Assembly (NCBI GenBank): GCA_031290475.1
Contig: JAITNM010000046.1
Span: 1 to 45,757, forward strand
Origin: Treponema sp.
GTDB taxonomy: Bacteria > Spirochaetota > Spirochaetia > Treponematales > Breznakiellaceae
Length of the DNA: 45,757 bases
Reading direction: 5' to 3'
Below the pieces are notes generated by a model. The model worked only from the letters and a program-made list of their open reading frames with translations. It ran no database searches and was not told where the DNA came from. A program made the position numbers and the translations under genes. Position 1 is the first letter of the stretch. Each line of letters begins with the position of its first letter. Shown piece by piece: positions 32,385 through 43,799 of this stretch.

Positions 32385-35300
32385 ATGACCGATTTTGTCC
32401 ACCTCCATGTCCATTCGGATTTTTCCCTCCAGGATGCCGCCGTTTCGGTGACGAGCCTCTGCGACCGGGCGGAAGAGCTGGGGATGAAGTATCTGGCCTT
32501 GACCGACCACGGGAATATGTTTGGCGCCATGGAATTTCTGGCTGCCTGCAAGGAAAATGGCAAACATGAAAAGCGGGCAAACCCCATTAAGCCCATTATC
32601 GGCTGTGAGGTCTACACGGCCCCCGGCTCGCGTTTCGAGAAGAAAGGCTCCGAAAGCGATAATAAATACTACCATTTGATTCTGCTCGCGGAAAACCGGG
32701 AAGGTTACTTCAACCTGGTAAAGCTCTGTTCCTCCGCCTATACCGAGGGTTTTTATTACCGCCCCCGGGTCGATGACGAACTCCTCACCCAATACCACGA
32801 GGGGCTTATCGCCCTTTCGGCCTGTGTTTCCGGGGAGATCCCCAAGCTCATCCAGGGGGGAGACCTTGCGGGGGCGGAGGCCAAAGCCCTGCATTACCGG
32901 GATCTTTTTGGGGAAGGGAATTTCTACCTGGAAATCCAGGATCACGGCATTCCCCGGGGTGTACTCCGGAACGCCGATCTGTCTCAAAAGGACATCAACA
33001 AAGCCGTTGTGGAAATTTCCCGAAAGACCGGTATCCCCCTGGTGGCGACCAATGACGTTCACTACCTCGACCGGGAAGATTCGGTAGCCCACGATGTGCT
33101 GCTCTGTGTCGGCACCGGGAAACTCAGAACCGAGGTAAAACGCAAAAAATACTATGGGGATCAGTTCTACTTCAAAACCGGCGATGAGATGGCGGCCCTG
33201 TTCCCTGAATATCCTGAAGCCATCGCCAATACGGTGAAGATAGCCGGGCGCTGCAATCCGGATGTGCCGAAGATTACGCAAAAGGAGCTGCCTAAATATC
33301 TGCCGGATTTCGAGATACCTTTGGGCTTTGCCGATGCCGGCGCGTACCTGCGGCGCCTGACGATGGAAGGGCTTCCCAAACGTTATCACGATATGAGTGA
33401 ACAGGTGAAGAAGCAGGCCGAATACGAGCTTGACGTGATTATCAAGATGAACTTTGCGGGCTACTTCCTTATCGTGGCGGACTTTATCAACTGGGCTAAG
33501 GACCGGGGTATTTCCGTGGGGCCGGGCCGGGGGTCCGGGGCGGGTTCCATTGTGGCCTACGCGCTCAGGATCACCGACATTGATCCGCTCAAGTACGGAT
33601 TGCTGTTCGAGCGTTTCCTCAACCCGGAACGGATTTCCATGCCGGACTTTGACGTGGACTTCTGTAATGAACGCCGGGAAGAAGTGATGCAATATGTGAC
33701 AAAAAAGTACGGCAAGGAACGGGTAGGGCAGATCATCACTTTTGGCACCCTGGGCGCCAAACAGGTGATCAAGGATGTGGCGCGGGTTTTGGACATCACT
33801 ATTGGTGAGTCCGAATCGATCACGAAGCTCATTCCCAAGGATCCCAAGATCACCCTGGCCAGGGCTTTTGAAGATGAGCCGCAGTTGGGCGAATTGGAAC
33901 AAGATCCCCGGTATACCGAACTTTTCAGCCTGGCCCGGAAACTTGAAGGGCTGCACCGCCATTCAAGCCTTCACGCCGCCGGGGTGGTGATTGGCAAATC
34001 GGAACTGGATAACTACGTGCCCCTCTACCGGGATTCCAAGACCGGGGGCATAGCTACCCAGTACACCATGAACTATCTGGAAAACTGCGGCCTGGTAAAG
34101 ATGGACTTTCTGGGTCTCAAGACCCTGGACCTAATCAAAAATACGGTTGATATTATTCATGGCAAAGGCGGACAATACGCGAACTTCGACATTGATACTG
34201 TTGATGAACATGATCCCGCCACCTACGCCATGCTTGGGGAAGAACAGAACGAAGGGATATTCCAGTTTGAAAGAAACTGGTGGAAGGAAATACTGCGCAA
34301 GGCAAAGCCCGCGAGCATTGATGAACTTACCGCCCTCACCAGTTTGGGCCGGCCCGGCCCCATGCAGTTTATCCCCCAGTTTATTGAATCAAAGTGGAAC
34401 CCCCAGGTTATCCGCTACCCGGACCCCTCCCTGGAAGATGTGCTTAAGGAAACCTACGGCGTTATCGTGTACCAGGAACAGGTTATGCAGGTGGCCCGGA
34501 TCATCGCGGGGTACAGCATGGGACAGGCGGATCTGCTCCGCCGGGCCATGGGGAAAAAGAAAAAGGAAATCATCGACGCGGAAAAGGAACCCTTCCTTGC
34601 CGGCGCGGAAAAGCAGGGATATTCCCGGGAAAAGGCAGGGGAAATATACGACATTCTCGTCCCCTTCGCGGGCTACGGTTTTAACAAGAGCCATGCGGCG
34701 GCGTATTCGGTGCTTTCGTTCCGCACCGCCTACTTAAAGGCGAACTTCCCCGCGGAATTTATGGCCGCGAACCTCTCCAACGAAATCGGCGCGGCGGACA
34801 AGGAAAAACTGCCCGAGTACATTGCGGTTACCCGGAGACTGGACATTCCCCTCGACCCGCCGGATGTAAACCGCTCGGACAGGCTTTTTACCGTGGTAGA
34901 AGGCCGCATTGTCTACGGCCTCAAGGCTATCAAGGGCATCGGCGACAGCCCGGCGGAAGAGATCATCCGCGGCCGGAAGGAAGGCGGACCGTACAGGAGT
35001 TTTATGGATTTTCTTGACCGGGTGAACCTGAAATCCACCGGTAAGATCGAAGGCGATCCTGATAGGCGGGAAAACGCGGTGGGCAAGAAGGTAGTAGAAC
35101 TGCTCGTTAAGACCGGCGCCTTTGACAAATTTGGCGTTGACCGGGCAGTGCTGCTGGGGAATCTGGAAACGGCGGTGGATTACGCCCAGAGCAAAAAAGA
35201 TGACAAGAAGTTCGGCCAGGTGAGCCTTTTTGAAAATACGGGAGAACAGGACTACCTGGAATTTGAATTCAAAGAATTCCCGGTTATGGATCGGATGGAA

Positions 35301-36542
35301 AAGCTCAACATCGAAAAAGAGCTTATCGGTTTTTATATCTCGGGGCACCCCCTGGACGATTATAAGGCAGCCTGGGAAAAGTTTGTAGCGCTGAATCTGT
35401 CAAAGGCCGAAGAAGCGCCCGAGACGGTTTATATGCTGATTGGCATTTTGAAATCCATAAAAACGCACTCGGACAAGACCGGGAAAGCCATGGCTTTCGC
35501 TTCCCTCCAGGATTATAACGGCGAAATAGATTTAGTGTTTTTCGGGAAAGTTTGGGAAAGCTGTCAGAATAAGATAAAAGAGGGGGACCGTATTGCGGTT
35601 AAGGGCAGGCTGGACCTGAAACGGGGCAGGCCTACCCTGCAGGTTTCTTCCGCCCTGGAACAGGAAAACCTCGGGGTTGATGAAGAATTAAACCGCTTCG
35701 CCGCTTCGAGCCACCCCCTGGATCAGTTCAAAGAAGCCTGGAAACAGTTTGTCACCCTGGATCTTGCCAATCCCAAAAATTCCCCTGAAGGCTCATACAC
35801 CCTTATCGGAATTCTGACCAGGCTGAGTTCCCACAAGGATAAAAATGACAATGACATGGCTTTTGGCTCCCTCCAGGATTATAATGGTGAAATAGATTTA
35901 GTGTTCTTTGCGAAAGCCTGGAAGGAGTGCCAGGGACTCATTTTTGAGGAAGACAAGATCGCGGTCAAGGGCAGGCTGGATCTGAAACGGGACAAACCGG
36001 GTTTCCAGGTGAGCTCCCTCCTGGACATTGAACAGCTCAGGCGGCGGGCGGTAAAGGCCGCTGCCAATTCCGCGTCTTCCGGCGCTGCAACCGCGGCCGG
36101 CGGGGAACCCCTCCCGGCTCGGGAAGAAAGCGGCGGCCGGCCGGCGGCGGACGCCCCCCTCCCCCCGCCGGCCGCCGCTCCCGCGGGGGCCCTTGGCCCG
36201 CCAGACCCGGTTTTCCCCGGAGCGGCGGACGGCAGGGAAAGCCCGGCTGCGGCGGAATTTCCGGCCGGGCCGGAAATTCCTGCAAGGGACGAAAAGGCGC
36301 CTTCGGACCGGGAAGGACATATCCGGCTCAGGCAGGAGGCGGCGGAAAGGGAGGACGCCCTTTTTATGCTGCGGGACTACCTCTTGGAAACCCCGGGGCC
36401 CTGTATGGTGTTCATCCATGTTCCGGTGGGAGCCAGGGAAATGGTGATCCGCACCGATTCCCAGATCCGTACTGCCGCAGACAGCGCGTGTCTTAACGCC
36501 CTTAAAAACCAGGGAGCGGTTGCCGCAGTATGGGCCGCATAA
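32385..36542 (+). CDS. dnaE: DNA polymerase III alpha subunit with duplicated OB-fold region
   Basis: 1385 residues against about 1160 in E. coli. N-terminal PHP domain (FVHLHVHSDFSLQDA, LALTDHGNMFGAMEF); palm with GPGRGSGAGSIVAYALRITD and the catalytic aspartates of MPDFDVDFCNE; fingers with YQEQVMQVARIIAGYSMGQA; beta-binding and tandem HhH region (YGLKAIKGIGDSPAEEII). The SGHPLD plus OB-fold module occurs twice, residues 988-1109 and 1110-1231, an in-frame 366-bp tandem duplication. Residues ~1245-1320 are an Ala/Pro/Gly linker leading to a C-terminal domain (MLRDYLLETPGPCMVFIHVP). Main replicative polymerase. Near-leaderless start. Confidence 0.96.
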   Translation: MTDFVHLHVHSDFSLQDAAVSVTSLCDRAEELGMKYLALTDHGNMFGAMEFLAACKENGKHEKRANPIKPIIGCEVYTAPGSRFEKKGSESDNKYYHLILLAENREGYFNLVKLCSSAYTEGFYYRPRVDDELLTQYHEGLIALSACVSGEIPKLIQGGDLAGAEAKALHYRDLFGEGNFYLEIQDHGIPRGVLRNADLSQKDINKAVVEISRKTGIPLVATNDVHYLDREDSVAHDVLLCVGTGKLRTEVKRKKYYGDQFYFKTGDEMAALFPEYPEAIANTVKIAGRCNPDVPKITQKELPKYLPDFEIPLGFADAGAYLRRLTMEGLPKRYHDMSEQVKKQAEYELDVIIKMNFAGYFLIVADFINWAKDRGISVGPGRGSGAGSIVAYALRITDIDPLKYGLLFERFLNPERISMPDFDVDFCNERREEVMQYVTKKYGKERVGQIITFGTLGAKQVIKDVARVLDITIGESESITKLIPKDPKITLARAFEDEPQLGELEQDPRYTELFSLARKLEGLHRHSSLHAAGVVIGKSELDNYVPLYRDSKTGGIATQYTMNYLENCGLVKMDFLGLKTLDLIKNTVDIIHGKGGQYANFDIDTVDEHDPATYAMLGEEQNEGIFQFERNWWKEILRKAKPASIDELTALTSLGRPGPMQFIPQFIESKWNPQVIRYPDPSLEDVLKETYGVIVYQEQVMQVARIIAGYSMGQADLLRRAMGKKKKEIIDAEKEPFLAGAEKQGYSREKAGEIYDILVPFAGYGFNKSHAAAYSVLSFRTAYLKANFPAEFMAANLSNEIGAADKEKLPEYIAVTRRLDIPLDPPDVNRSDRLFTVVEGRIVYGLKAIKGIGDSPAEEIIRGRKEGGPYRSFMDFLDRVNLKSTGKIEGDPDRRENAVGKKVVELLVKTGAFDKFGVDRAVLLGNLETAVDYAQSKKDDKKFGQVSLFENTGEQDYLEFEFKEFPVMDRMEKLNIEKELIGFYISGHPLDDYKAAWEKFVALNLSKAEEAPETVYMLIGILKSIKTHSDKTGKAMAFASLQDYNGEIDLVFFGKVWESCQNKIKEGDRIAVKGRLDLKRGRPTLQVSSALEQENLGVDEELNRFAASSHPLDQFKEAWKQFVTLDLANPKNSPEGSYTLIGILTRLSSHKDKNDNDMAFGSLQDYNGEIDLVFFAKAWKECQGLIFEEDKIAVKGRLDLKRDKPGFQVSSLLDIEQLRRRAVKAAANSASSGAATAAGGEPLPAREESGGRPAADAPLPPPAAAPAGALGPPDPVFPGAADGRESPAAAEFPAGPEIPARDEKAPSDREGHIRLRQEAAEREDALFMLRDYLLETPGPCMVFIHVPVGAREMVIRTDSQIRTAADSACLNALKNQGAVAAVWAA
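35346..36050 (+). repeat. Tandem 366-bp duplication inside dnaE
   Basis: Unit boundaries are set by CACCCCCTGGA at 35346 and 35712, and by CATGGCTTT at 35489 and 35855: both spaced exactly 366 bases (122 codons). The best-conserved stretch (35489-35556 versus 35855-35922) encodes SLQDYNGEIDLVFF in both copies. Divergence elsewhere shows the event is not recent. Confidence 0.9.
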
Positions 36543-36582
36543 AAAAAACACGGCCGTTAGGCCGCACAGGAAAGAGGTAATC

Positions 36583-37170
36583 ATGCGGGTTTTGATGAAT
36601 ATTTTAAGCGGCCTCACGAATCTATACATGATTCTCATTTTTATCCGGGTCATGCTGACATGGTTCGGCAGAATTGCATACTCAAGGCCGGTAGATATAC
36701 TGTGCCGGTTTACCGATCCCTACCTTAACTGGTTCCGCCGTTTCCCCATACTGAGGGTAGTTAACCTGGACCTCTCGCCTATTGCCGCCCTGGCGGTCCT
36801 CTCGGTGGTAAATAGCATCTTTCTTACCCTGGGCCGCTATGGTTCCATTACCCTGGGCTTCATTCTGGGAATGATCCTCTCCGCCATTTGGTCCATTCTG
36901 TCCTTTGTGCTGGGCTTCTTCCTCATCATTCTGGTCTTGCGGTTCATCGCGTATATAACTAACCGTAACGTGTATCGATCGTTCTGGCGGATCATCGATA
37001 CTCTCTCTCAACCCATCCTCTTCCGGATTAACCGGATCATCTTTCGGAATAGAATAGTGCGCTACCATACCGGACTCCTGGTTTCAATAACGGTACTCTT
37101 GGCGCTTTGGACGGGCTTGGGTTTCCTGGTGCGCCAGGGAATAAACCTGCTCATAAGGCTGCCGCTTTAA
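36583..37170 (+). CDS. YggT-family membrane protein
   Basis: 195 residues with two YGGT modules: an N-terminal pair of helices around LTNLYMILIFIRVMLTWFGR then CRFTDPYLNWFRRF, and a second FLIILVLRFIAYITNRNVYRSFWRIIDTLSQPILFRI. This helix-amphipathic-helix pattern is the family mark; YggT proteins are linked to osmotic or cell-division functions in other bacteria and CCB3/SepF-type neighbourhoods, but the role is unresolved. ATG 36583 has GAGG upstream; it follows dnaE by 40 bases and precedes recG. Confidence 0.85.
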   Translation: MRVLMNILSGLTNLYMILIFIRVMLTWFGRIAYSRPVDILCRFTDPYLNWFRRFPILRVVNLDLSPIAALAVLSVVNSIFLTLGRYGSITLGFILGMILSAIWSILSFVLGFFLIILVLRFIAYITNRNVYRSFWRIIDTLSQPILFRINRIIFRNRIVRYHTGLLVSITVLLALWTGLGFLVRQGINLLIRLPL

Positions 37171-37206
37171 GCGCCGCCCGTCCGGCTGAAGTGGGGGACT
37201 TTATTC

Positions 37207-39429
37207 ATGTACCTGCGGGAACTCTTAAATTCAGCGGAAAATGTACGAGGCGTTGGAGAACGGGCGGCGCGGCTTCTGGCGAAGGTTGGCATCACCAGTG
37301 TAGCGTCCCTGCTCTGTTATTACCCCAGAGACTGGGAAGATCGCAGCGTTGTTGTTCCCCTCAGGGATTTTCAAAAACGACAGCGGATCTGCACCGTGGT
37401 ACGGGTCCTGGCCCACGACTGGTTTGGCTTTGGCGCCATGAAGACCCTCAAGATCCATGTGGAAGATGATACCGCCAGGGCTGTCCTGGTCTGCTTTAAC
37501 CGTCCCTTTTTGGCAAAACAACTTGAGGTGGGAAAGAGCTTCTGGGTTTGGGGACATTTTTACTACAAATACGGAGAAATTCAGTCTACAGCCTTTGAGG
37601 TTGAACCCTGGGAAGAAAACGAAAATAGCGCTCAAACAAGGACGGGCAAAGTTCCGCAAGGCAGTACCGCGGCGGCAGGCAGAGGGCCGCAGGACAGGAG
37701 CTTCGGCAGCATCCAGCCGGTCTACCCCCTTACGGCGGGACTTACCCAGGGGATGCTCAGAAAGTACGTAAAAAATGCCCTTGCCGAATACGTAAAACCC
37801 CTAAATAATGAACTTCCGGAGGCCGTCATTGAGCGGGACGGGCTCCTTTCAAAAGCGGAAGCTATACGGGCCATACACTTTCCCTCCTCCGTGGGGGAAC
37901 TCACCCTGGCCCGCAAGACCCTGATCTACGAGGAACTTTTCTACCTGGAAGTGGTCGTGGGCAAACGTTCCCTGGAACGGCGCAGTATTTCTGTTGAGGA
38001 AAAGGCGATTCCGTCCCCTGATCCTTTGCAGGGCAAATTCACCCCCCTCCAGGAGCAGCTTCTGGAGCGGCTCCCCTTCCCCCTCACGGCGGGCCAGATC
38101 CGGGCCGTGGAAGACATCAACCGGGATATGTCCGGCCCCTACCCCATGGCCCGCCTCCTCCAGGGGGACGTGGGTTCCGGAAAAACCCTGGTCTCCTTTC
38201 TCGCCGCCCTCAGGGCTGTTGACGGGGCTGCGCGGGGACAGGCGGCGATTATGGCGCCCACGGAACTCCTCGCCCGGCAGCACGCGGAAAACGCAGCAAA
38301 ACTGCTGGAGCCCCTGGGTTTACGGCCGGCGTTTCTCCCCGGGAACATCAAGGCAGGCGGAAGGGGGCTTTTACTCAAGGCCCTGGCCTCGGGGGAGGTG
38401 GATGTTGTGGTGGGAACCCACGCCCTTTTTTCACGGGATGTGGAGTATAAAAATCTCCATCTCGTGGTGGTGGACGAACAGCACCGTTTTGGCGTAACCC
38501 AGCGCCAGGCCATAATGGTTAAGGGAGATCACCCGAATCTCCTTATGATGAGCGCTACCCCCATACCCCGGACCCTGGCGCTCACGGTCTTCGGCGACCT
38601 GGATGTCTCGGTGATCCCCGATCTTCCGCCGGGCAGGAAGCCGGTAAAGACCCACCTGACAAAAGAATCGAATGAACAGAAAGTCTACGATTTTGTCGCC
38701 GTGGAACTGGCCGCCGGGAGGCAGGCTTATTTTGTCTACCCCTTGATTGAAGCGAATGATAACAATTCCCTCAAAGACGCGGAGTCCATGGCGGAAAGGC
38801 TCGCGAAAAGGATATTCCCCAGGTACTCCGTGGCCCTGATTCACTCCCGGCTTGATGAGGAAGAGAAGCGGCAAAAAATGGAAGCCTTTCGCCAGGGGGA
38901 GATCAGGATCCTGGCCGCTACCAGCGTAGTGGAAGTAGGGGTGGATGTGCCTAACGCCAACTGCATGGTAATCGAACACGCCGAACGTTTCGGCCTTTCC
39001 GCCCTTCACCAGCTCCGAGGCCGGGTCGGCCGGGGCGCGGACCAGGCGTACTGTTTCCTCATATATTCCGATCATGCTGAAAGCGAAAAGTCCGGGGCGC
39101 CCCATGCTTCGTTCCCCGGGGAAGGCGCCGGGGTTTCCCTCACCGAGGCAGGCAAGACCCGGCTCAAGGTCATGCTGGAAACCACCGACGGCTTTATCAT
39201 CGCCGAGGAGGATCTGAAACTCCGGGGCCCCGGGGAGATCGCGGGAACCGTCCAGGCGGGATACCTCTCCCTGGGCTTAGCCGATCCTGTCCGGGACGCG
39301 GAAGAGCTTGCCCGGGCCCGTACCGATGCCTTCGCGCTCCTGGAGGCCGACCCCGGGCTGGAAAGAACCGAAAACCGCCGTATAGCGGAAGTTCTGGAAC
39401 GGGCCTCGCCGTTTTCTCAATTGATTTAG
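37207..39429 (+). CDS. recG: ATP-dependent DNA helicase RecG
   Basis: 740 residues, superfamily 2 helicase that reverses stalled forks and moves Holliday junctions. The N-terminal wedge domain ([33 protein letters not shown]) binds the junction. Helicase motifs: [16 protein letters not shown] (I), [11 protein letters not shown] (Ia), [13 protein letters not shown] (II), [17 protein letters not shown] (III), [20 protein letters not shown] (V) and [11 protein letters not shown] (VI). Slightly longer than usual because of a Gln/Gly/Arg-rich loop near residues 138-160 and a short insert after the QAYCFLIYS strand. Last gene of the dnaE-yggT-recG run. Confidence 0.96.
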
Positions 39430-39478: not shown

Positions 39479-41383
39479 ATGAAAAAAGACAAAAATTTGA
39501 CCGTAAAAGCCGGAGAATCCTTACAAACAACAGAGCCGGTGGAAAAAAAGCCCTCAAATGACCGGCGGAAAAAAAAGGCCTCCATTAAAATCCGGTTTAT
39601 GGTTTTTTTTACTGCTTTTATTGTAATCCTCTGCATGATCACCACCGCAACCAATCTCAAAGAAACCTTCGACGCGGCAATGAAGATCTTCAGCCAGCAG
39701 GGGATTCCCATTGTTGAACAGGCGGGGCGGCTCATCGACGGCGACCGCTTTGAAGCCCTGGCAAAAAACGGTGATGAAAACGACCCCTATTACGAATCAA
39801 CCCGGCTCGCCCTATTCACCCTTAAAGTGAATTCCGGTTGTTTGTACCTCTACACTATGTCGCAGGTGAAGGAAAATTTATACCAGTATGTCATTGACGG
39901 CAGCGCTGAACCTTGGGATGAAGACTTCTCCGCCTTTGGAGACACCGAAGATGTGAGTGATTGGGATGAGGCCCTGACGCAGTCAATAGAAACCGCCGGT
40001 ATCGGGATTACCCGCATGGAAAATCAGGGGGATTGGGGCAGGGTTATTTCGATCTATAATCCCATTTTAAATTCCGCAAACAAAGTGGTAGGGTTTATCG
40101 GCTGTGATTTTAGCGCGGAGTCGCTGTACGAGGTAGTTGTTACGCAGGTAAAGCGCCAGGTTCTTACGTCCTTGATTTTTATCGTTATCGGTTTGATTCT
40201 GGAATTCGTTTTTATCAGGATGATATTCAATCCCCTGCAAAAAATAAACGAACCCTTGGGAAAAATTGCGGAAGGAGAAGGGGATCTCAGAGTGGTTATC
40301 CCGGTAAGCAGAAGAGACGAAGTAGGAACCCTGGCGGCCAGCTTTAACCGCTTTGTGGAAAAACTCAAAAACATCATCATTACTATTAACGCCTCTTTGT
40401 TGGAACTTAATGATAACTCCGCCCAGTTAAAGAACCATGCAGGCGTCATGATCGAAGCCATTGACAGCCTTTTTGCCGGCGCCGGGGAAACCCGGGAAAA
40501 GGCCCAGCACCAGGAGGCCAAGGCCCGTGCGGCGCGGGACGGGGTAAAGCTCCTTGAAAAACATATCGACAGCCTGGAAGCAATGCTGTCAAGCCAGGTG
40601 TCGGCAGTGGAGGAATCATCTACGGCCATCCAACAGATGACCGCCAATGTCCAGTCGGTAACGAACAGCATGGGCAGGATCAAAGAGAATTACACTAAAC
40701 TGGTGGAAGATTCCCAGAAGGGTAAAGACAACCAGCGGAAAACCGGCGAGAATATCACAACGATTGTTTCTCAGATAGAAAACCTGATCAAGGCCAACAG
40801 CGCTATTACCAAAATTGCCGCACGGACAAACCTTCTGGCCATGAACGCCGCTATTGAAGCAGCTCATGCCGGAGAAGCCGGCCGCGGATTTGCAGTGGTG
40901 TCGGAAGAAATCAGAAATCTCTCTGTGACGGCCACAGAACAGTCCGGAACTATCAAGCAGTTCATCAATGAAATTCAAGAGACGATCCACTCGGTAGTGG
41001 GTGCATCAACTCTTTCTATGGAATCCTTTGGAAGTATCAATACCGACATTAGTTCCCTAAGCAATATGATCTCCCAGATTTCCAATGCCATGGAAGAACA
41101 GAATGTGGGGCTCCAGGAAATATTAAAGGCAGTGGAGTTGGTAAAGAATAGTACCGGATCTATCCATAATGCTTCAGGGGAAATGAAACAGGAAAGCATC
41201 CCCATCTTTGCCCAGATAGACGAACTGGTAAGCGATGCGGATATCATCCTGAACCAGGCGGAAGAGTCTATGAAACGCACTGAAGAACTCAACAAAGCTT
41301 CCAATGAGGTGCTGGATATTGCCCAGAAAAACGGCGTCAGCGCCGATCAGGTAACCTTCGCCGTCCGGAAATTTAAGATATAA
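39479..41383 (+). CDS. Methyl-accepting chemotaxis protein
   Basis: 634 residues. A Lys-rich cytoplasmic N-terminus (~36 residues) precedes TM1 ([20 protein letters not shown]). The periplasmic sensor (about 58-225; [40 protein letters not shown]) resembles a single Cache domain. TM2 ([20 protein letters not shown]) leads to HAMP (about 249-300) and a coiled-coil signalling domain whose tip is intact: [20 protein letters not shown] then [15 protein letters not shown]. Clusters in arrays with CheA/CheW; ligand unknown. Only a weak AAGAG precedes ATG 39479, and the gene stands alone. Confidence 0.93.
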
Positions 41384-41451
41384 GAATTGCGGCGGCGGTA
41401 ATTCCCCTTGTCCCCCCGGTATGCTATACTGCCCCTGGAGGGCGGCTGGCA

Positions 41452-42171
41452 ATGATTACCCTGCGGGGGATTTCAAAACAGTACGGAAATGTACATGCGC
41501 TCAGAGATGTGGAGCTTACCGTGCCTTCCGGGAGTATTTTTGGCATCATAGGGAGGAGCGGGGCGGGCAAGTCCACGCTGCTTCGGATTATGGGTCTTTT
41601 GGAGCAGGCCGAAGGGGGGGAAGTGTACTTTGGGGATGAACGGGTGGATTTCCTTGAGGGGAAGGAACTCCTGGAACGGCGCCGGAAAATGGGAATGATC
41701 TTCCAGAATTTTAACCTCTTTTCATCCCGGAATGTGATGTCAAATATCGCCTATCCCCTGGAAATTGCGGGGCTTCCTAAAAAGCAGATACACGAACGGG
41801 TGGATAACCTTCTGGAACTGGTACATATCATGGACAAACGCAAGGCCCGGCTTCGGGAACTTTCCGGAGGGCAGAAACAGCGGGTGGCCATTGCCCGGGC
41901 GCTGGCGGTAAACCCGGAGGTACTCTTCTGTGACGAGGCGACGAGCGCCCTTGACCCCCAGACCACCCGCTCCATCCTGTCCCTGATCCGTGAACTCCAC
42001 GACCGGTTTAAGCTGACCGTAGTGCTCATTACCCATGAGATGATGGTGATCCGGGAGGTATGCGAAGAAGTGGCGGTTATGGAAGAGGGCAGGATCGTCG
42101 AACAGGGGACAATCGAAGCGGTGTTCAATAACCCCCAGTCTCAGGCAGCCAGGGAGCTCATCCATGGGTAA
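41452..42171 (+). CDS. metN: Methionine-type ABC importer ATPase, lacking the regulatory domain
   Basis: 239 residues. ABC ATPase with Walker A GRSGAGKSTLLRIMGLL, Q-loop IFQNFNLFSSRNVMSN, signature ELSGGQKQRVAIARALAV, Walker B VLFCDEATSALDPQTT and H-loop VVLITHEM. The FNLFSSR..NIAYPLEIAG stretch is typical of MetN. Full-length MetN is about 340 residues; the C-terminal NIL/ACT-like domain that lets internal methionine inhibit transport is missing and the protein ends just after AARELIHG. Overlaps metI by 8 bases. GGAGGG lies about 12 bases upstream of the ATG. Confidence 0.88.
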   Translation: MITLRGISKQYGNVHALRDVELTVPSGSIFGIIGRSGAGKSTLLRIMGLLEQAEGGEVYFGDERVDFLEGKELLERRRKMGMIFQNFNLFSSRNVMSNIAYPLEIAGLPKKQIHERVDNLLELVHIMDKRKARLRELSGGQKQRVAIARALAVNPEVLFCDEATSALDPQTTRSILSLIRELHDRFKLTVVLITHEMMVIREVCEEVAVMEEGRIVEQGTIEAVFNNPQSQAARELIHG

Positions 42172-42832
42172 AATCGACATTCTGGGCATCCTGCCCCTCT
42201 TGCCCAAGGCAACGCTGGAAACCATTCACATGACCTTTTTTTCCGCCATTTTTGCGAGCATCCTGGGTTTCCCTTTGGGGACCCTGCTCTACGTTACTTC
42301 CCCCTCGGGCCTCATTCCCCGGAGCTTCCTCTACAATACGCTTTCCCGGCTGGTGAATATTTTCCGTTCCCTGCCCTTCATCATCCTGATGATCCTGCTC
42401 ATCCCCTTCTCCCGGTTCATTATTGGAACCAGCATAGGCCCCACGGCGGTGATAATCCCCCTGTCCATAGCCGCCGCGCCCTTTGTAGCCCGGATCGTGG
42501 AAACCGCCCTCTCTGAAGTTGACGGCGGGGTTCTCCTCGCGGCCCGGGCCATGGGCTCTACAAATATGCAGATTATCCGGAAGGTACTCATCCCCGAAAC
42601 CCTGCCCTCCCTCATCTCAGGCCTCGCCTTAACCATTATCAACCTGATTGGCTACTCCGCCATGGCTGGGGCAATCGGCGGCGGCGGTTTGGGCGATCTG
42701 GCGATCCGGTACGGGTATTACCGCTTCAGAATCGACGTGACCATTGCCGCGGTAATCATCATTCTCATCCTGGTTGAGGCGGTACAGCTTGCGGGTACGG
42801 CGATTAGCCGAAGCCTGCTGGCAAAACGATGA
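42164..42832 (+). CDS. metI: Methionine-type ABC importer permease
   Basis: 222 residues, five membrane helices, the MetI size. Contains the coupling-helix EAA-type loop (ETALSEVDGGVLLAARAMGSTNMQIIRKV region) and the family stretch SLPFIILMILLIPFSRFIIG. Forms the inner-membrane channel with MetN. Starts inside metN, so translation is coupled. A terminator-like hairpin follows immediately. Confidence 0.92.
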   Translation: MGKIDILGILPLLPKATLETIHMTFFSAIFASILGFPLGTLLYVTSPSGLIPRSFLYNTLSRLVNIFRSLPFIILMILLIPFSRFIIGTSIGPTAVIIPLSIAAAPFVARIVETALSEVDGGVLLAARAMGSTNMQIIRKVLIPETLPSLISGLALTIINLIGYSAMAGAIGGGGLGDLAIRYGYYRFRIDVTIAAVIIILILVEAVQLAGTAISRSLLAKR

Positions 42833-42835
42833 GAA

Positions 42836-42878
42836 AGGTTGTTCCAAGGCTTTAATTTCCGGAACGGCCTTTTTAAAT
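42836..42878 (+). terminator. Terminator after metI
   Basis: AGGTTGTTCC (42836-42845) pairs with GGAACGGCCT (42861-42870) using two G-U pairs, 15-base loop, followed by T5. It separates metNI from metQ, which has its own promoter. Confidence 0.6.
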
Positions 42879-42913
42879 TTACGAGAAAAATCTGAATTTA
42901 TATCAATTTCCTC

Positions 42914-42942
42914 TTGATTTTTTTGATAGATTTTTTTATGCT
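42914..42942 (+). promoter_or_regulatory. Probable metQ promoter
   Basis: TTGATT (42914-42919), 17-base spacer of mostly T, TATGCT (42937-42942). An alternating TA run follows, then AGGAGG before ATG 42984. No S-box or other methionine riboswitch fits in the leader. Confidence 0.5.
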
Positions 42943-42983
42943 ACTAAACATATATATATACTAGTAATTCTATAGGAGGAATT

Positions 42984-43799
42984 ATGAAAAAATCGATTGT
43001 CGTTAGTTTGTTGATTATGAGCGCCCTGATCCTGGGCCTCAACCAGCCGGTAAACGCCGGGGGGAAAAAAGAAGCCTCCGGTTCCACCCTCACCGTAGGC
43101 GCTACCCCGGTTCCCCATGCGGAACTGCTCAACCTGGTCAAGGATGATTTAGCTGCCCAGGGGATCACCCTTAAGGTGGTGGAATTCACCGATTACGTAA
43201 CCCCCAATACGGCCCTCATCGCAGGGGATCTGGACGCCAATTTCTTCCAGCATATCCCCTACCTGGGATCCAATGATGAATGGAAGAACGCCCTTATCAG
43301 CGCCTTTGGGGTCCACGTCGAACCCTTCGGACTCTACTCCACCAAAATCAAGAATGTCAACGACCTCCCCAACGGAGCCACCATTGCCATTCCCAACGAC
43401 CCCTCCAACGGCGGCCGGGCGTTGCTGCTCCTGGCTTCCAAGGGGATTATCACCCTTAAGGCCGGCGCGGGAATCACCGCCACCGTTCAGGATATTGCCT
43501 CCAACCCCAAGAACCTGGCATTCCGGGAGCTTGAGGCCGCCCAGCTCCCCCGCTCCCTGGCGGATGTGGACGCCGCGACCATTAACGGCAACTACGCCCT
43601 GGAAGCGGGTTTCAACCCCGTCAAAGACTCCCTCATCATCGAAGGCGCCGATTCTCCCTATGTGAATATCGTCGTGGTTAAAAAGGGCGCTGAAAATGAT
43701 TCCCGGATCAAGGCCCTTTCCAGCGCCCTCCGTTCCCAGAAAGTCAAGGATTACATCAACAAGACCTGGAATGACGGCAGCGTCGTTGCGGTGTTCTAG
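42984..43799 (+). CDS. metQ: Methionine-type ABC importer substrate-binding protein
   Basis: 271 residues, NlpA/MetQ family. Signal peptide KSIVVSLLIMSALILGLN with a likely cut after PVNA; there is no lipobox Cys, unlike most MetQ lipoproteins. Family blocks: LTVGATPVPHAELLNLVKDD, VEFTDYVTPNTALIAGDLDANFFQH, VEPFGLYSTKIKNVNDLPNG, AIPNDPSNGGRALLLLASKG, VNIVVVKKGAENDSRIKALS. Probable ligand methionine. AGGAGG lies 6 bases before the ATG. Its TAG stop lies within the left terminal repeat of the element at 43796. Confidence 0.9.
   Translation: MKKSIVVSLLIMSALILGLNQPVNAGGKKEASGSTLTVGATPVPHAELLNLVKDDLAAQGITLKVVEFTDYVTPNTALIAGDLDANFFQHIPYLGSNDEWKNALISAFGVHVEPFGLYSTKIKNVNDLPNGATIAIPNDPSNGGRALLLLASKGIITLKAGAGITATVQDIASNPKNLAFRELEAAQLPRSLADVDAATINGNYALEAGFNPVKDSLIIEGADSPYVNIVVVKKGAENDSRIKALSSALRSQKVKDYINKTWNDGSVVAVF

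Follow-up and report, generated by a model that had tools for sequence, protein, structure and literature searches.

The window analysed here, a stretch of 45,757 nucleotides from a Treponema of the termite-gut type, contains a complete dnaE gene (Table 1). The encoded polymerase is a full-length DnaE1: its open reading frame matched the NCBIfam equivalog PRK05673 (DNA polymerase III alpha) at 1368 bits, above the cut-off of 1002, the Pfam domains PHP, DNA_pol3_alpha, finger and HHH_6 and two OB stretches were identified in it, and PHP, Pol3 core, (HhH)2, clamp motif and OB follow one another in the order of DnaE1. No other DnaE1 match was present in the genome, a draft of 306 contigs. Downstream of dnaE, a small YggT-like membrane protein (assigned by eye, with no NCBIfam match) and recG were found as ordinary neighbours (36520-39429), followed by a chemotaxis-receptor-like protein (below the family cut-off) and genes for a MetI-/MetQ-like methionine transporter (39479-43799).

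Table 1. Features of the dnaE gene in the window.
Feature	Residues	Window position	Strand	Basis and remarks
dnaE, DNA polymerase III alpha subunit (DnaE1)	1385 aa	32385..36542	+	Pfam, NCBIfam
PHP and polymerase core	1-830	32385..34874	+	PF02811, PF07733, PF17657; in relatives, history differs from that of the tail
Helix-hairpin-helix region	821-921	34845..35147	+	PF14579; left recombination breakpoint of relatives falls here
QVSLF clamp-binding motif, one copy	945-949	35217..35231	+	Sequence, aligned to the E. coli region
OB module A	988-1109	35346..35711	+	Pfam, self-alignment, AlphaFold2
OB module B	1110-1231	35712..36077	+	Pfam, self-alignment, AlphaFold2
Disordered Ala/Pro-rich linker	~1239-1304	36099..36296	+	pLDDT below 50
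Canonical DnaE1 C-terminal domain (tau-binding type)	~1310-1384	36312..36536	+	Model; seen in single-OB relatives

Modules A and B were aligned without gaps over 122 residues, of which 66 were identical (54%), with 61% nucleotide identity and a period of 366 nt. PF01336 (OB) matched each module alone (E = 1.3e-13 and 6.2e-09), in agreement with the in-frame 366-bp tandem duplication described in the first-pass annotation of this DNA. Tandem Repeats Finder gave no match to the duplication because the copies are too diverged; the duplication is therefore old, neither recent nor generated by assembly. An AlphaFold2 model covering aa 820-1385, for which the window's sequence and those of 65 relatives served as input (66 sequences), had a mean pLDDT of 87, with values above 90 for both OB copies, below 50 for the linker and of ~97 for the C-terminal domain. 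The OB topology was predicted for both copies, the second included, and a five-stranded OB barrel was recognised in each from the Pfam matches, the strand pattern of the model and the structural matches to OB proteins, which were SSB, RPA, AspRS and PolC for copy A and RPA/PolD chains for copy B.

The Ala/Pro stretch behind the OB modules, previously described as a disordered linker, was indeed predicted to be disordered. The small domain following it is likewise real, but it is not the extra domain that it had been taken for, since this C-terminal domain of ~80 aa is conserved in all relatives and also terminates the single-OB polymerases of sister families. In the structural alignment of the model, the DnaE proteins of Taq and E. 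coli ranked on top with alignments reaching into their C-terminal domains (CTDs), and the superposition extended up to residue 1199 of Taq DnaE. Because single-OB relatives possess the domain and the model superposes on these two structures, it is the standard DnaE1 CTD, presumably tau-binding by its likeness to that of E. coli. The C-terminal tau-binding domain is absent in DnaE2. Neither the clamp-binding motif QVSLF nor the CTD was duplicated in the window's DnaE1, so that the contact with tau through the CTD need not change, contrary to what had been suggested.

Module A, together with the preceding ISG, retains the (F/I)SGHPLD entry and the basic loop. In module B the OB core is kept, the SGHP entry has become SSHP and the loop is less basic: at the positions of E. 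coli R1004, K1009 and R1010, copy A has K, K and T and copy B has S, K and N. Among the relatives, FSGHP(L/M)D is conserved in A copies and single copies, and SGHP has been lost in most B copies, which retain the OB core MAFgtLqDYrGEIDLVFF. Nearly all A and B copies have K/R at the position of E. coli R1004. In 26 of 32 genus groups B exceeded A in basicity, the reverse being found in the window's own. Between copies A and B of the window, dS was about 1.3 and dN 0.35. Over 20 close species pairs, dN/dS had a median of 0.149 in the A copies and 0.135 in the B copies, and both OB copies are therefore maintained under purifying selection. In some genera with very diverged B copies, the identity between A and B falls to 21%.

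We consider it likely that the protein is an ordinary DnaE1 with an old and functional OB duplication, in which copy A is canonical and copy B an extra surface, and that the catalytic cores of several of its relatives have been replaced by recombination. Copy A would occupy the canonical OB place after the clamp motif; as it keeps the OB features and follows this motif, it most likely takes the position of the E. coli OB, which touches the clamp and forms a bridge among fingers, thumb and exonuclease. Copy B would follow copy A as an additional OB, ahead of the long flexible linker that leads to the tau-binding CTD, and there most likely provides a second, weaker surface (for the clamp or exposed DNA) and a longer reach for tau, leaving the catalytic mechanism unaltered. 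The replisome positions of both copies and the binding partner of copy B are inferred here. The lower basicity of the window's copy B relative to copy A, against the family trend, counts against this explanation.

The first-pass annotation had placed the OB on the single-stranded template, and the doubled OB would accordingly give the polymerase an extra template contact. The greater basicity of B in most genus groups speaks for such a contact, as does the ability of isolated OB domains to bind ssDNA (Georgescu 2009, as cited in PMC4703070). In the cryo-EM structure of the E. coli alpha-clamp-epsilon-tau complex, however, the OB makes no contact with DNA and lies ~40 A from ssDNA, touching the clamp via loop 1003-1013 and helix 1035-1043, and the CTD is the tau-binding domain (PMC4703070). 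The single-strand rationale is weak because the E. coli OB makes its contact with the clamp rather than the template; in addition, copy B of the window has lost the basic residue at two of the three loop positions and is less basic than copy A. We therefore regard a template-binding role of the doubled OB as improbable.

To describe the distribution of the second OB, DnaE1 tails were compared among relatives, most of which are metagenome-assembled genomes (MAGs). Two OBs were found in 21 of 43 genera of the family (hereafter f1; one genome per genus, tail readable) and in 90 of ~122 genomes of a larger f1 set, which was selected and not random. In families f3-f5 of the same order, none of the 26 sampled genomes had a two-OB DnaE1, all being single-OB. 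In a phylum-wide search of 296 genomes, the six longest DnaE open frames that were retrieved had one OB each, with no extra OB. The second OB is old and, within the sampled order, restricted to the family. This outcome of the alignment across relatives, which had been proposed for dating the duplication, also means that re-sequencing cannot explain it away, as it is family-wide. The two-OB set includes two single-contig genomes, of 4,059,867 and 3,855,671 bases, and the duplication is therefore not an assembly artefact. A recent or assembly-made origin was ruled out on the nucleotide divergence of the copies, the family-wide occurrence and these two genomes.

Module trees separated two main types of two-OB tail, type 1 (T1; 29 genomes, including the window) and type 2 (T2; 51 genomes), spread over many genera, and the smaller two-OB groups g24, g68 and g12, which may be separate duplications. 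One shared origin gave AU p values of 0.25 for the A copies and 0.04 for the B copies, in module trees built from only ~115 columns. In type-1 tails, 855 codon pairs with identical residues used the same codon, against an expectation of 695 given the codon usage (mean z of 1.65 per genome), a weak sign of gene conversion between the copies or of a younger duplication. Single copies were nested with the T2 A copies (L021, L105) and with the T2 B copies (L018, L026, L149), which suggests losses, and the OB copy number changed at least eight times on the core tree. Given this recurrent loss and gain, lineages can dispense with the second OB on an evolutionary time scale.

Such turnover would also be expected of a neutral tandem duplication, in which the second OB would have no specific role and would persist as a tolerated spacer, doing no harm within a flexible tail; the nested single copies and the B copies with as little as 21% identity to A point the same way. 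Against neutrality, B copies retain the OB core residues with a dN/dS of ~0.14, like that of A, and the two main tail types have been kept by 29 and 51 genomes of many genera. On balance, a neutral spacer is possible but unlikely, and we favour a functional second OB.

In several of the relatives, the history of the DnaE1 core (from aa 1 to ~850) differs from that of the tail, which comprises HhH, clamp motif, OBs and CTD. The tail type conflicted with the core phylogeny (AU p = 0.0008 and 1e-11). Switch points in triplet scans, far above the permutation maxima, fell mostly at aa ~816-917, with a second one, where present, at ~1205-1229; in one of eight triplets the switch lay further upstream, at aa 669. 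The breakpoints tested by permutation fell at aa ~834-917 and ~1219-1229. The core rejected as clades the GTDB genus g40 (AU p = 8.6e-08) and the group T1b (3e-42), the latter having been named after a tree had been seen, and the tail recovered both at 98-99. RpoB and DnaN of the same genomes recovered T1b at 100, siding with the tail. Pairwise distances of the core correlated with those of everything else at 0.02-0.34, and those of the HhH/clamp-motif region with DnaN at 0.66. For two members of g40, G039 and G183, identity reached 92% in RpoB, 85% in the HhH/clamp-motif region and 84% in DnaN, and only 66% in the core. G039 and G029 shared 85% identity in the core versus 42-45% in the OBs, and their DNA similarity begins at the dnaE start codon and ends around aa 980. 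The window's own polymerase gave no clear mosaic signal when compared with its nearest kin.

From these patterns we infer that recombination between species replaced catalytic cores and that the tail was resident, a direction taken from RpoB, DnaN and the genus labels only, GyrB contributing little. A tail that had itself moved was considered and dropped once RpoB and DnaN proved to agree with the tail. G007 is an exception, with its RpoB among the T2 genomes and both core and tail with the G039 group; the whole dnaE of this genome may therefore be foreign. The DnaE cores of two members of the family, L071 (G030) and L062 (G045), grouped with family f3, L071 having a type-2 two-OB tail, but these placements involve long branches and are uncertain. 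A further proposal is put forward tentatively and would at present be a minority reading: the HhH/clamp-motif/tandem-OB/CTD tail would be a resident cassette for docking that is passed on together with the clamp, and cores from other species would have been swapped onto it repeatedly, with the duplicated OB helping the swaps to work.

Two dnaN and two gyrB genes were detected in the window's genome, an adjacent pair on each of the contigs G000:C78 and G000:C183 (L155, L156, L237); together with an estimated contamination of 5%, this makes it probably a mixed MAG. Two or three dnaN matches each were also found in G020, G024, G112, G133, G195, G197 and G219, which are either mixed MAGs or have real extra clamps. 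The rpoB gene of a single-contig 4.65-Mb relative (G034:C1:2326062-2329352, L221) contained many stops and frame changes, probably from sequencing error.

Chimerism of MAGs or hidden paralogy could in principle produce a discordance of core and tail as an artefact, the more so as many genomes are fragmented MAGs and that of the window has two dnaN-gyrB loci. The discordance was, however, seen in two complete single-contig genomes (G029 and G039), MAG pairs of one genus concurred (G181, G183), and the breakpoints lay within one open reading frame on one contig. As to paralogy, most genomes had one DnaE1, their remaining DnaE matches being ~33% identical and DnaE2-like. An artefact of this kind thus appears very unlikely, and recombination between species is preferred as the source of the mosaic.

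The DnaE1 proteins of E. coli and Thermus aquaticus (PDB 5fku, 2hpi, 3e0d, 4iqj) resemble that of the window in the order of PHP, palm/thumb/fingers, HhH, clamp motif, OB and CTD, whereas the second OB module and the 86-residue linker between OB and CTD are peculiar to the latter. A minor DnaE1 variant with a duplicated OB has been reported (Timinskas et al., 2013; PMC3919608); as far as the passage concerned describes it, this is the same architecture, a DnaE1 that is canonical apart from its two OBs, and the architecture is therefore not new. That passage names no organism, and the distribution, phylogeny and selection are added here. The same source mentions two Lactococcus PolCs with tandem OBs (PMC3919608), which likewise represent a tandem OB in a C-family replicase, but in a PolC with the OB on the N-terminal side and thus as an independent case. 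A literature search returned no account of family-wide distribution, selection or core/tail discordance for two-OB DnaE1 and, at the level of titles and abstract openings, no paper on mosaic dnaE.

The DnaE1 of these treponemes indicates that a clamp-touching part of an essential replicase can double and remain functional for long. The recurrent gain and loss of the OB in close relatives offers natural pairs for testing its disputed function, as a template sensor or a clamp contact. Further, the discordance between core and tail suggests that replicative polymerases can undergo interspecies recombination where the catalytic part meets the clamp-docking part.
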